This document shows positions 32,624 to 63,983 of a stretch of DNA of 64,000 nucleotides, piece by piece. The translations under genes and the position numbers were made by a program. The stretch is from Pseudomonas sp. R5-89-07 (GTDB lineage Bacteria; Pseudomonadota; Gammaproteobacteria; Pseudomonadales; Pseudomonadaceae): assembly GCF_003851685.1 (NCBI RefSeq), contig NZ_CP027727.1, forward strand, positions 4,588,001 to 4,652,000, read 5' to 3'. Under the pieces are notes generated by a model that was not told the DNA's origin, ran no database searches, and worked only from the letters and a program-made list of their open reading frames with translations. Position 1 is the stretch's first letter. Each line of letters opens with the position of its first letter.

Positions 32624-33636
32624 CAGAGCGCTCCCTTGACCTTGGCGGCGATGTCCGTCGGCAGCCATGGCTGCCAGACCTGCGGTTGTTCCTTGAGGAA
32701 TGCCAGCGCCACTTGGCGCGGTGGCAGGCGCTTCTCGCTCATTTGCGCCAGCGTGCTGTTGAGCAGGTCAATCGGCAGGTCCACTTTTTCAAAGAATGTC
32801 ACCAGTTGGGGATACTGCGCCTTGAACGGCGCCGACACGCCAATCGCCAAATGCGCCGGTAACGAACGCGTGCCGATCGGATGGGGGTTGTTGGCGTCCG
32901 CCAGGGTTTTCCAGGCTTCGGCGTTGAACGCTGGCTCCTCCAATTTGACCAGTTTGAACCGCCCCAGCAGCGGCGTGGGCGACCAGTAGTAGAACAGCAC
33001 CGGCTTGCCGCGACGGATCGACGACGCCACCTCGGCGTCCAAGGCAGCACCTGAGCCGGTGCGGAAGTTGACGAAGCTGTCGGTCAGCCCATACGCCTTG
33101 AGCTTCTGGCTGTTGACGATCTCCGAGGTCCAGCCGGTGGGGCTGTTGAGAAAGCGTCCACGGCTTGGGTCTTCCGGGTCGCGGAACACATCCTTGTAGC
33201 GCGCCAGGTCGGCCACCGATTTGAGGTCCGGCGCCAGAGGCTTGATGCCGCGCTCGGCATCACCCTTGATCACATATTCCGGCACCCACCAGCCTTCGGT
33301 GGCGCCCTTGACGATGTCACCCAGGCCGAACACTTTGCCTTCGCCTTCGGCCTTGACCCACGCCGGACTGCGCCCGGCCCATTCCTCGCCGATCACCTGG
33401 ATATCATCCTTGGCCAGGGCCGCTTCCAGGCTCACGGTGCTGCCGGGCAGCGTGTCGGTCGGCAAGCCGTAGCCTTTCTCGACGATCAGGCGCAGCACCT
33501 CGGTGATCAGGCTGCCGCTTTCCCAGGTAATGTCGCCGAAGTGGATCGGTTTAGTCGCCTCGGCCGCTGGCGCGGGTTGGGCCAGCAGGCCTAGGGCCAG
33601 CAGCGAACCGCCGAGCAGGTGTTTGAGTGTTTTCAT
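32623..33636 (-). CDS. Glycine betaine/choline-type ABC solute-binding protein (ProX/OpuAC-like)
   Basis: A 337-residue periplasmic protein. The signal peptide is MKTLKHLLGGSLLALGLLAQPAPA|AE. The OpuAC domain includes IHFGDITWESGSLITEVLRLIVEKGYG, DIQVIGEEWAGRSPAW, FLNSPTGWTSEIVNSQKLKAYGL and PVLFYYWSPTPLLG, where aromatic residues usually cage a quaternary ammonium group. The ATG at 33636 overlaps the sigma factor stop (ATGA, 33633-33636), so its translation is coupled to the sigma gene. No ABC permease or ATPase is present nearby. Confidence 0.87.
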   Translation of the reverse strand: MKTLKHLLGGSLLALGLLAQPAPAAEATKPIHFGDITWESGSLITEVLRLIVEKGYGLPTDTLPGSTVSLEAALAKDDIQVIGEEWAGRSPAWVKAEGEGKVFGLGDIVKGATEGWWVPEYVIKGDAERGIKPLAPDLKSVADLARYKDVFRDPEDPSRGRFLNSPTGWTSEIVNSQKLKAYGLTDSFVNFRTGSGAALDAEVASSIRRGKPVLFYYWSPTPLLGRFKLVKLEEPAFNAEAWKTLADANNPHPIGTRSLPAHLAIGVSAPFKAQYPQLVTFFEKVDLPIDLLNSTLAQMSEKRLPPRQVALAFLKEQPQVWQPWLPTDIAAKVKGAL

Positions 33637-58325: not shown

Positions 58326-59612
58326 TTACTTGGCCGACTTGATCGCAGCGCCAAGTTTCTTGGCAGTGTCGGCCGGGTCGGCTTTCGGATCGTTCATGTA
58401 GTTGGTAACCACGTCAAAGAACGCACCTTGTACCGCCAGGGTGGTGGCCATGTTGTGCGCCATGCTTGGCTGCAGGCCGCCGGTCTTGGCGTCGGCGAGG
58501 AAATCCTTGGCCGCGGTCTGGGCGCACGAGTCGAAGCCGTACGAATCCATTTTGTTCAGCATGTCGTTACGCACCGGGATCGAACCCTTGTTGATGCTGA
58601 AGACCTTCTGGAAGTTTTCACCCAGCACGACTTTGGCGATGTCCTGCTGGCCAGCCGCGGTGCCTTTGTCTTTCTGCTTGAACACCGCCAGGGAGTCGAT
58701 GTTGTAGGTAAAGGCTTTGTCGGTGCCCGGGAAGGCTACGCACTCGTAGTCCTTGCCGGCGACTTTCTTGGCGGCGGTCCATTCGGACTTGGCCCAGTCA
58801 CCCATGATCTGCATGCCGGCCTTGCCGTTGATGACTTTACCGGCTTCCAGGTTCCAGTCCTGGCCTTTGCCGTCAACGTCCATATAGGTCGCGACTTTCT
58901 TAAGCTCGGTCAGGGCCTTGACCATTTCCGGGCCGGTCAGGGCGGCGTTATCCAGGTCGACCAGGGCTTTCTTGTAGCCATCGGCCCCCATCACCGAGAG
59001 CACCACCGCTTCGAACACGGTGCTGTCCTGCCAAGGCTGGCCGCCGTGAGCGAGGGCAATGAAGCCTGCCGCTTTGAGCTTGTCGCCGGCGGCGTAGAAT
59101 TCTTCGAGGGTAGTTGGGTTCTTGGTGATGCCGGCTTTCTTGAAGACTTCCGGGTTGATCCAGAGCCAGTTCACGCGGTGGATGTTGACCGGTACGGCAA
59201 CGTAGTCACCGTCGTACTTCACGGTGTCGGAGACTTTCTTGTCGAGCAGCGAATCCCACTTTTCTTCTTTGGCGACGTCCTTGAGCACGTCGGTGTCGAG
59301 CAGGCCGGTGGACGCCCATTCCTGGATGTCGGGGCCTTTGATCTGGGCAACGCCTGGCGGGTTACCGGCGACCGCGCGGCTTTTCAGCACGGTCATGGCC
59401 GTGGCGCCACCGCCACCTGCGACCGCACCGTCTTTCCAGGTGAAGCCGTCTTTCTCAACTTGGGCCTTCAGGACATCCACTGCTGCCTTTTCACCGCCGG
59501 AGGTCCACCAATGCACCACTTCAACCGTACCTTTGGAGTCGGCGGCAAATGCACTGAGGGGAAACATCGAGGCAATGGAAATAGCAACGGCGAGGCGATT
59601 AATCGCGTTCAT
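58326..59612 (-). CDS. gtsA: Glucose ABC transporter periplasmic binding protein GtsA
   Basis: A 428-residue CUT1 binding protein. The signal peptide is [25 protein letters not shown]. The mature part begins [21 protein letters not shown], a typical sugar-binding pattern, with aromatic residues such as WWTSGG and HGGQPWQDS likely to stack on glucose. The gene heads gtsABCD-oprB. A promoter module identical in layout to that of the neighbouring epimerase lies upstream. Confidence 0.95.
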
Positions 59613-59624
59613 CTGAGTACCTTT

Positions 59625-59637
59625 TCTTGTTGTTATG
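59625..59637 (-). promoter_or_regulatory. Hfq/Crc-like motif upstream of gtsA
   Basis: CATAACAACAAGA on the coding strand sits directly before the AAAAGG ribosome binding site of gtsA. The AACAACAA core is a strong match to the catabolite-activity motif. Confidence 0.62.
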
Positions 59638-59663: not shown

Positions 59664-59733
59664 CGGAGTTTAAACAGGGATTTTCCGGGCGCAGGTAACA
59701 AAGGGACGCACAAATGTCACCACTTGGTGACAT
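59664..59733 (-). promoter_or_regulatory. gtsA promoter module: operator palindrome, GTTAC box, TTTAAACTCCG element
   Basis: Reading in the direction of gtsA: ATGTCACCA-N2-TGGTGACAT (59733-59714), GTTAC (59699-59695) and CCCTGTTTAAACTCCG (to 59664). TAAACT is a plausible -10. The same three elements at the same distances occur upstream of the sugar epimerase gene. The operator overlaps the last codons of that gene. A GltR-like response regulator is a possible binder, not demonstrated. Confidence 0.72.
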
Positions 59734-60976
59734 AGCGTCCGCTGCCCAATGCACTGGCCAGGCTGGGTGCCAAGGGTAACGCAGGCAGCACTACCGCTTG
59801 CCAGGCATGGTACAGGTCCGGCTTGCCGCCCCAGATCTTGCTGCTGGGTTGGTTGTGCGGGCTGAGTTCGTGATGCCAACTGCCATGGAGTCGGTCAATG
59901 AAGTGGGTTTCGCAAAATTCCCAGAACCGCCGATACCAGATTTCGTAATGCAACTGGCCGGTACGCTTGAGCAGCGCCTGGGCAGCGGCGCTGGCTTCGG
60001 CATGGGTCCAGTGCAGGCGTTCACGCACCACCGGGCGCTGGCTCCAATCCAGGGTATAAACAATGCCCGGCGCACCATCCACTGCCCAGGCATAGTCACA
60101 GGCACTGGCAAACAGCCCTTGGGCGTCGGTCACCAACCAGTCTGGCGTGGGCAGCCCGGCTTGCAGGCGCGCAGCCTCCAGGTGCAGCACCAGCCGCGCC
60201 CATTCGAAGCCATGGCCGGGGGTGATGCCATAGGGACGGAAACCGTCGGCGGGGTTGTCTTCGTTGTAACCGAGCACCGGCTGCCACTGGGCGTCGAAGT
60301 GCTCGATCACCATGAAGCGGTTACCGGCGGCATGGGCATGGATGACCCGTTCGACGATACGCAACGCGCGGTCCAGCCAGCGCGTGTCACCCGTGACATC
60401 GGCCAGGGCGAGGAACGCTTCGGTGGCGTGCATGTTGCTGTTGGCGCCGCGGTAGGCTTCGACGCCGCTCCAATCCTGGGCGAAGGATTCGAGCATCACG
60501 CCTTCCTCCTCACTCCAGAAGAACTGGTCGATGATATGGATCGCATCGTTGAGCAGGGTTTGCGCGCCGGGTGCGCCGGCCACCACCGCCGAGCTGGCGG
60601 CCAGGGCGACGAACGCATGCAGGTAAGCGGCCTTGCCGGTGTTGCCATCGATGGCCTCGGGCGCGGCGAACCAGCCACCGTGTTCGCTATCGTGCAACGG
60701 GCCACTCAGGGCGGCGACGCCGTGCGCGACCAGCTCGGCATAACCGGGCAAGCCCATGGCATGGGCCATGGCAAAGCTGTGGGTCATGCGGGCAGTGTTC
60801 ATGGTTTCAGCGTGGGCATCCGCCGGGAGCTGACCTGTATCGTCGAGGTTGCCAAAGCCGTGCGGCAGGCGGGAAGCCTTGGCAAACGAGAGCAGGCGCT
60901 GGCCTTCGGCAGCGAGCCAGCCGTGATGGGCAGGTGCGTTCAGCCAACTGCTGGCGGGCAGTGGTTGCATGGTCAT
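59717..60976 (-). CDS. AGE-family sugar epimerase/isomerase
   Basis: A 419-residue (alpha/alpha)6-barrel protein. PAHHGWLAAEGQRLLSFAKASRLPHGFGNLD, RMTHSFAMAHAMGL, HGGWFAAPEAIDG, GANSNMHATEAFLALADVTGD, and GITPGHGFEWARLVLHLEAA carry the conserved Arg/His residues. The family includes N-acylglucosamine 2-epimerase, YihS and mannose isomerase; interconversion of glucose, fructose and mannose is plausible here because the gene shares a promoter type with gtsA and lies beside it. Exact substrate is inference. Confidence 0.88.
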   Translation of the reverse strand: MTMQPLPASSWLNAPAHHGWLAAEGQRLLSFAKASRLPHGFGNLDDTGQLPADAHAETMNTARMTHSFAMAHAMGLPGYAELVAHGVAALSGPLHDSEHGGWFAAPEAIDGNTGKAAYLHAFVALAASSAVVAGAPGAQTLLNDAIHIIDQFFWSEEEGVMLESFAQDWSGVEAYRGANSNMHATEAFLALADVTGDTRWLDRALRIVERVIHAHAAGNRFMVIEHFDAQWQPVLGYNEDNPADGFRPYGITPGHGFEWARLVLHLEAARLQAGLPTPDWLVTDAQGLFASACDYAWAVDGAPGIVYTLDWSQRPVVRERLHWTHAEASAAAQALLKRTGQLHYEIWYRRFWEFCETHFIDRLHGSWHHELSPHNQPSSKIWGGKPDLYHAWQAVVLPALPLAPSLASALGSGRYVTKW

Positions 60977-61006
60977 GGGTGGCCCTTGTTATTTTTTATG
61001 GGTGAC

Positions 61007-61077
61007 CGGAGTCTAAACAAGGGCATGGGAGCGGCAAGTAACGAAGGCGAAGATAAATGTCACCAGATGGTGACATT
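61007..61077 (-). promoter_or_regulatory. Promoter module of the AGE-family gene, twin of the gtsA module
   Basis: In the coding direction: AATGTCACCA-N2-TGGTGACATT (61077-61056), GTTAC (61042-61038), and CCCTTGTTTAGACTCCG (to 61007). Offsets from CGGAG to GTAAC (31) and to the operator centre (59.5) equal those at gtsA. Confidence 0.72.
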
Positions 61078-63089: not shown

Positions 63090-63983
63090 TCACTCCAACG
63101 GCACCAACCATTGCCCACAGACGTGCGCCAGATGCTCGGTCAACAGGCCCAACAGTTGCCCGCCACTGCGCCAATGATGCCAGTACAACGGCACGTCGAT
63201 GGGCTTATCTGGCAGCAATTCGACTAACAAGCCGGTTTGCAGCTGCTCGCGCACCTGCAATTCGGGCACCAGGCCCCAGCCCAGGCCGGCTTCCGCCAGG
63301 CGAATAAAGCCTTCGGACGACGGGCATAAATGGTGCTCGAAACCACCGCTCACCCCGAGCGAAGCCAGGTACCGGTGTTGCAGGAAATCATCCGGCCCGA
63401 ACACCAGCGCCGGCGTACTGGCCAATTGATTAGCCTGCACGCCGCCTGGAAAGTGCCGCGCTATAAATGCAGGGCTGGCCAATGCACGGTAACGCATGGC
63501 ACCCAGCGCCAGGCTGCGGGCGCCGGCAACCGGGCGCTCGCTGGCGCAGATACAGGCCGCCACTTCACCGGCGCGCATGCGTTTGAGGCCCACGGTCTGG
63601 TCCTCCACCACCAAATCCAGCAGCAAGTGCTGCTCGCCACAGAAATCACTGACCGCCAACGCCCACCAGGTGGCGAGACTGTCGGCGTTCAGCGCGATAC
63701 GCAAACGCTCGGGCATGCCTTCCTCGTCCAACGCGGGCACTTGGCTTTGCAGGTCGCGCTCCAGCAGACGTACCTGCTGCACATGGTTGAGCAAGCGCCG
63801 ACCGATATCGGTGGGGGTCGGCGGCGTCGCCCGTACCAGCACCGGTTGGCCGACACGCACCTCCAGCAGCTTGATCCGCTGGGACACCGCCGACTGCGAA
63901 AGCCCCAGCACCTGAGCACCGCGCTCGAAGCCGGCCTGTTCCACCACCGCCGCCAGGGCAGAAAGCAATTTATAGTCGAACAT
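63090..63983 (-). CDS. argP: LysR-family regulator of the ArgP type
   Basis: A 297-residue LysR protein. The subgroup opening FDYKLLSALAAVVEQAGFERGAQVLGLSQSAVSQRIKLLE is characteristic of ArgP/IciA, and LRIALNADSLATWWALAV, DQTVGLKRMRAGEVAACICAS and PALVFGPDDFLQHRYL also match. ArgP controls arginine or lysine export genes such as argO; no argO-like gene lies inside the window but it may adjoin on the right. The bases 63984-64000 are its leader. Confidence 0.88.
   Translation of the reverse strand: MFDYKLLSALAAVVEQAGFERGAQVLGLSQSAVSQRIKLLEVRVGQPVLVRATPPTPTDIGRRLLNHVQQVRLLERDLQSQVPALDEEGMPERLRIALNADSLATWWALAVSDFCGEQHLLLDLVVEDQTVGLKRMRAGEVAACICASERPVAGARSLALGAMRYRALASPAFIARHFPGGVQANQLASTPALVFGPDDFLQHRYLASLGVSGGFEHHLCPSSEGFIRLAEAGLGWGLVPELQVREQLQTGLLVELLPDKPIDVPLYWHHWRSGGQLLGLLTEHLAHVCGQWLVPLE

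Follow-up and report, generated by a model that had tools for sequence, protein, structure and literature searches.

The best-described counterpart of the promoters studied here is that of the gltBFGK-oprB operon of P. aeruginosa, where binding, footprinting and activation by GltR are established at gltB (PMC7927077). ChIP-seq yielded the GltR motif GTNACAAA, with the strongest peak, about 75-fold, at gltB; a gltB-lux fusion was induced about 64.5-fold by glucose, and no induction was seen without gtrS-gltR, with a promoter lacking GTGACAAA, or after partial removal of the element GTGACAAACCCGGA (PMC7927077). In the same study, GltR protected two regions of the gltB promoter (footprint I, -44 to -13; footprint II, -11 to +15), acetyl phosphate strengthened binding, and a 2008 study of P. 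putida is cited for GltR as an activator. GltR has also been described as a repressor acting on the operator tgGTTTTTc, an argument that rests partly on operators overlapping the mapped promoters (PMC4081096); sequence differences in that earlier promoter were already noted (PMC7927077). HexR likewise controls glucose genes, namely the zwf and edd operons (PMC11544825), but differs in its motif, TTGTN7ACAA, and in the sign of regulation. Finally, P. protegens Pf-5 makes extracellular fructose from mannose by way of a gene that was not annotated (PMC6293094).

The window, that is, the whole 64,000-nucleotide stretch of Pseudomonas sp. R5-89-07 that was analysed, contains two genes, gtsA and the AGE-family gene manI, each preceded by a copy of the same promoter module; genes and modules all lie on the minus strand:

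58326..59612, minus strand: gtsA, periplasmic glucose-binding protein, equivalent of P. aeruginosa gltB (gene context and the gtsABCD = gltBFGK equivalence)
59627..59634, minus strand: Crc-type A-rich motif AACAACAA in the gtsA leader (from sequence)
59667..59672, minus strand: gtsA -10 box TAAACT, predicted from conservation, with a predicted start at about 59660
59695..59702, minus strand: gtsA third element TTTGTTAC, abutting the -35 region (from sequence)
59714..59733, minus strand: gtsA operator, palindrome ATGTCACCAAGTGGTGACAT with two inverted GTNAC half-sites, putative GltR site I by homology
59717..60976, minus strand: manI, D-mannose isomerase of the AGE family (NF051846; PF07221 GlcNAc_2-epim)
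60989..60996, minus strand: Crc-type A-rich motif AAAAATAA in the manI leader (from sequence)
61010..61015, minus strand: manI -10 box TAGACT, predicted from conservation, with a predicted start at about 61003
61038..61045, minus strand: manI third element TTCGTTAC (from sequence)
61057..61076, minus strand: manI operator, palindrome ATGTCACCATCTGGTGACAT (from sequence)

The AGE-family gene is identified as a D-mannose isomerase by its curated family score (722.6 bits against NCBIfam NF051846, cut-off 600), and its nearest solved chains are YihS and sulfoquinovose isomerase. A domain search with the GtsA protein found no Pfam family and a weak match to ABC_arch_GlcS (68.3 bits, cut-off 500); gtsA is orthologous to gltB by gene context and by the published equivalence of gtsABCD with gltBFGK (PMC7927077).

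Read in the direction of the genes, both promoters show the order ATGTCACC-N4-GGTGACAT, then TTTGTTAC (gtsA) or TTCGTTAC (manI), then TAAACT or TAGACT. The palindrome form common to both is TGTCAC-N6-GTGACA, with GTTAC at a constant distance from it and then a TARACT -10 box. The module comprises three GTNAC half-sites spaced by 11 and 21 bp, and offsets counted from the first A are the same in the two copies (GTNAC at 2, 13 and 34, -10 at 61). A sequence-only reading of this DNA had reported the palindrome, GTTAC and the string TTTARACTCCG before both genes, with equal distances from CGGAG to GTAAC (31 bp) and to the operator centre (59.5 bp). All of these elements and distances hold in the window, and the string TTTARACTCCG includes the -10 box. 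The same reading took the intervening filler to be diverged; this it is, but it is not random, as 12 of the 29 bases outside the elements are identical.

Chance occurrence of the twin module in the window is excluded. The palindrome ATGTCACCA-N2-TGGTGACAT lies at 59714-59733 and 61057-61076, and with up to three mismatches there are three sites in the window (the third, at 32796, has three mismatches), versus a mean of 0.02 in shuffled windows, none of 100 shuffles reaching three. The composite TGTCAC-N6-GTGACA-N12-TTCGTTAC, again with up to three mismatches, occurs twice in the window versus 0 expected. The gtsA and manI 67-mers agree in 46 of 67 columns, and the runner-up to the gtsA module across both strands of the window reaches 35. 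A genome-wide search, which had been proposed from the sequence alone, was made with R1, a sequence model of the module built from 57 sequences: in the 6.0 Mb genome of the strain it returned two full copies only, those of gtsA and manI (66.8 and 64.2 bits). The next scores were 15.7 bits (a shadow of the manI palindrome), 15.1 bits (C1:3988907, within a reading frame resembling an XRE-type regulator, and taken as noise) and 14.0 bits (a shadow of the other module's palindrome). The half-pattern TGTNAC-N6-GTNACA is not enriched by itself in this genome (3 versus 6 in the reversed control); its third exact match, at C1:1259811, lacks a TTCGTTAC at the spacing of the module, whichever strand is read.

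Conservation of the module was followed in close relatives: the best 80 of 593 loci selected by GtsA were added to the window, giving 81 gtsA and 68 manI promoters, 67 of the latter readable since locus L093 is cut by a contig end. The third element stands at offset 34 in all 81 gtsA and all 67 manI promoters, always as GTTAC except for GTGAC in two manI promoters. The -10 box is found at offset 60-61 in gtsA and 61-62 in manI. Mean information is high in the palindrome arms (1.89 bits for gtsA, 1.98 for manI) and the third element (1.88 and 1.96), reaches 1.25 and 1.80 bits in the -10 box, and is lower in the N6 core (0.96 and 0.67) and in columns 39-60 (0.95 and 1.11). In columns 19-30 it is 1.49 bits for gtsA and 1.03 for manI, so that these columns are also conserved in gtsA. 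The -35 region of gtsA is poor (best match 1-3 of 6 positions in 80 of 81 promoters), and that of manI is better, with four matches in 29 of 67; the manI promoter may therefore have some basal activity. The fixed offsets, together with high information in the elements and lower information in the N6 core and columns 39-60, support the proposal of selection on a common activator/promoter geometry.

To which regulator do these sites belong? Genome G270 carries upstream of gtsA the exact 14-base element of the published promoter, ATGTAACCATCCC-GTGACAAACCCGGA-TCGCTTCGTTACCC, in which GTGACAAACCCGGA is the right arm of the module palindrome; TTCGTTAC then follows at the usual place. We infer that G270 is P. 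aeruginosa or a very near relative. When the last A of the element is set as -10 (uncertain by 1) to follow the numbering of the paper, the G270 palindrome spans -35 to -18, inside footprint I, and its GTTAC spans -2 to +3, inside footprint II. In the window, the reverse complement of the gtsA third element, GTAACAAA, matches the ChIP-seq motif GTNACAAA exactly and that of the manI third element, GTAACGAA, with one mismatch, while the right half-site GTGACATT of both operators has two mismatches to it. The two footprints reported for P. aeruginosa fall on the palindrome and on the third element; they and the ChIP-seq motif from that species support naming GltR as the putative regulator of both window promoters. 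The earlier proposal that the AGE enzyme is tied to the glucose uptake regulon is likewise supported.

The gltR gene of the strain lies 125 kb past the window end (G000:C1:4777263-4777979) and adjoins glk and edd, by reading of the frames. Its product is 87% identical to the GltR of locus L070, a protein with Response_reg and Trans_reg_C domains. Between this strain and G270, 63 of 74 residues of the GltR C-terminal domain are identical, the stretch IVDMAVSRLRQRLRD being unchanged. The statement that no regulator is encoded next to either site is thus true of this genome but not of many relatives, in which gltR-gltS lies upstream of gtsA or manI, though not always immediately (in L025 other genes are found there).

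We consider it very probable that the two modules are GltR-dependent promoters, both activated by phospho-GltR. Glucose-bound GtsA (GltB) would stimulate the sensor kinase GtrS (GltS), and phosphorylated GltR, a response regulator of the OmpR family, would bind the inverted GTNAC pair centred near -63.5. It would also bind the third GTNAC half-site, which lies two turns of the helix further downstream against the poor -35, and recruit RNA polymerase, by a presumed contact, to the TARAMT -10 box. One copy of the module would drive gtsABCD-oprB and the other manI, so that isomerisation of mannose to fructose would be switched on together with hexose uptake. Binding and activation by GltR would then extend to manI, and because its promoter matches the GltR binding site, mannose use is probably under glucose-sensor control.

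Three other explanations are considered. Another regulator might bind the palindrome and GTTAC, with GltR only encoded nearby in some cases. In its favour are the shortness of the GltR motif, the usual preference of OmpR-family regulators for direct repeats rather than an inverted arrangement, and the distance of 125 kb between the gltR of this genome and the window with both sites. Yet both published footprints fall where the palindrome and third element lie, which argues against this, and for a regulator of the HexR type there is no exact TTGTN7ACAA match in the window, as against two in a stretch holding gltR. Sites of CRP/Vfr, of LysR type (T-N11-A), of TyrR type and of LacI/GntR type differ in spacing or half-site, and an ArgP-like LysR gene at 63090-63983 is not tied to the sites. 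We thus regard another regulator as improbable. As a separate observation, the two HexR-type sites of the 15 kb stretch containing gltR lie less than 80 bp apart, both inside a 77 bp segment (L183:11025-11101), against 0.11 sites expected; this would agree with control by HexR of the operon encoding GltR.

Alternatively, as was suggested in 2014, GltR could act at both sites as a repressor that leaves the DNA once phosphorylated: a gltR mutant shows raised expression, and phosphorylation frees GltR from DNA (PMC4081096). Against this stand the loss of induction without gtrS-gltR, the stronger binding with acetyl phosphate and the differing sequence of the earlier promoter (PMC7927077). That model concerns the same regulator and, as stated in PMC7927077, the same promoter element, but it has another operator (tgGTTTTTc), the opposite sign of regulation and a start inside the third element. 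The sites are also upstream of the conserved -10 box, a usual position for an activator, the gtsA -35 is poor in 80 of 81 promoters, and the published start falls within GTTAC. On the G270 promoter, the published numbering places +1 inside GTTAC and the conserved -10 box, TAGACT, at +25 to +30, which suggests that in P. aeruginosa the start published for gltB was placed some 36 nt too far upstream. If transcription began near +37 instead, the GltR sites would lie around -63 and -37, as is usual for an activator. Repression by GltR at these promoters therefore seems a little less probable still than another regulator. The conserved -10 box offers a sequence-based way to resolve the conflict between the activator and repressor descriptions.

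For breadth we turned from the 80 GtsA-selected loci, which are close relatives of the query, to searches of 149 genomes of the genus (R1 at E <= 1e-3 with strict filters, gtsA at E <= 1e-100, GltR at E <= 1e-80). A pattern with the exact outer bases TGTCACCANNTGGTGACA and at most one mismatch had matched 66 of the 149 genomes (reversed control 2, G001 and G147); it undercounts because the N6 core is free, and was replaced by R1. The module was found in 133 genomes, gtsA in 134, GltR in 133 and manI over its cut-off in 115. By hand tally, two modules are present in 91 genomes, one in 41, three in one and none in 16; the 91 are 90 with manI over the cut-off plus G083, where manI is split across two contigs. 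Module, gtsA and GltR are absent together in 15 genomes, a co-occurrence weakened by linkage in many genomes, where a single deletion could take all three. The sixteenth genome, G012, possesses both gtsA and GltR, and inspection of its sequence shows a weaker module (19.7 bits). G051 has three modules and a partial GltR; its segment G051:C1:7360500-7370500 (L225) shows a local duplication of gltR-gltS-manI-gtsA with partial gltR, in an assembly marked as 9% contaminated.

Across the family, R1 (E <= 0.01) matched 103 of 198 genomes in 8 of 19 genera, and so reaches seven other genera. Among 20 loci outside the genus, chosen by hand rather than drawn at random, the site precedes gtsA in 19. Three of those loci (L198-L200) contain manI as well, and in each of them manI is preceded by the composite, with 0-1 mismatches. 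A few observations stand apart. L203 (G235:C5:70511-75548), which R1 matches weakly (24.5 bits), shows neither gtsA nor manI in its vicinity and so speaks against the GltR reading. Palindromes in L003 and L004 have two mismatches. L005 and L022 hold TGTCACCA-N2-TGGTGACA-like palindromes with one mismatch in stretches with neither gene; these were taken as unrelated, L005 containing what reads like an enhancer-binding-protein gene. A second gtsA-like gene (62-67% identity) occurs in six of the 149 genomes (G023, G032, G051, G131, G140 and G143); in five of them R1 counts show no module in excess of the number expected for gtsA and manI, and G051 is rearranged.

The 24 genomes with manI over the cut-off and a single module provide a natural control, and all 24 manI loci were read. 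In 18, manI and gtsA are apart (the 7.2 kb covered at manI contain no gtsA), and none of these has a site: the best TGTNAC-N6-GTNACA within 300 and 700 bp upstream has 3-4 mismatches. In the other six manI adjoins gtsA; three loci (L172, L181 and L182) retain all three elements, the third as GTGAC, two (L171 and L178) retain the palindrome alone, and one (L175) has no element within 700 bp upstream. The incomplete or missing modules at L171, L178 and L175 speak against the GltR reading. Since distant manI genes have no site and adjacent ones mostly do, the module tracks the gtsA-manI arrangement, not manI as such. Absence of the module from close relatives keeping both genes had been named in advance as evidence against a shared promoter design; adjacent pairs mostly retain both modules. 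That the likeness of the two promoters is a mere leftover of tandem duplication, without present function at manI, is the least probable of the three alternatives: filler identity between gtsA and manI promoters (67 genomes) exceeds that of shuffled sequence (0.376 versus 0.284), so that a common origin is possible, but the filler has diverged to an equal level within and between genomes (0.376 and 0.383) and the elements have not, and the module is gone from all 18 manI loci away from gtsA.

The gtsA operator overlaps the 3' end of manI, where TAT GTC ACC AAG TGG TGA CAT encodes Y V T K W followed by the stop. Where both genes are present, the operator contains the stop codon of manI in 62 of 68 loci, as the TGA of GTGACA in 37 and the TAA of TGTAAC in 25, that is, in two different frames. 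The base left free in GTNAC thus serves the stop codon as well. In the remaining six the stop is 6-31 bases upstream of the operator. Downstream of the promoters, the A-rich motif AANAAYAA is present in 80 of 81 gtsA leaders and 65 of 67 manI leaders. Equivalents of gtsA are among the predicted Crc targets of PMC3003667; manI was not seen among those named in the text covered.

Returning to activation by phospho-GltR, a joint reading of these results, which we hold to be somewhat more probable than its opposite, is as follows. As an activator of the OmpR family, GltR would act through an unusual fixed geometry: two inverted GTNAC half-sites near -63.5 and, two helical turns on at the -35 box, a third half-site standing alone. 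This arrangement would be conserved throughout the Pseudomonas family. The published gltB start, and hence the repressor model, would be an artefact of a +1 placed inside the third half-site, and manI would be a second full GltR promoter, kept only beside gtsA. The P. aeruginosa promoter of PMC7927077 agrees in its equivalent gene, its GTNAC elements and the 14-base GltR element within the palindrome, and both its footprints are explained; it differs in that the paper gives a single 8-base motif and a start-site numbering that does not fit the conserved -10 box, and 'palindrom', 'inverted repeat' and 'mannose' have no occurrence in its text. In the mostly open-access literature searched, none of the papers listed concerned GltR control of a mannose isomerase, judging by titles and the openings of abstracts, and the motif string GTNACAAA and 'gltB promoter' with GltR lead to a single common source.

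We would therefore place manI as a new putative target in a regulon already known, whose promoter anatomy becomes clearer. A full and testable anatomy of the GltR promoter would replace the 8-base motif, and a mannose isomerase would be added to the glucose-sensor regulon. It may also be relevant to the conversion of mannose to fructose by an unnamed isomerase that was observed in P. protegens in 2018.
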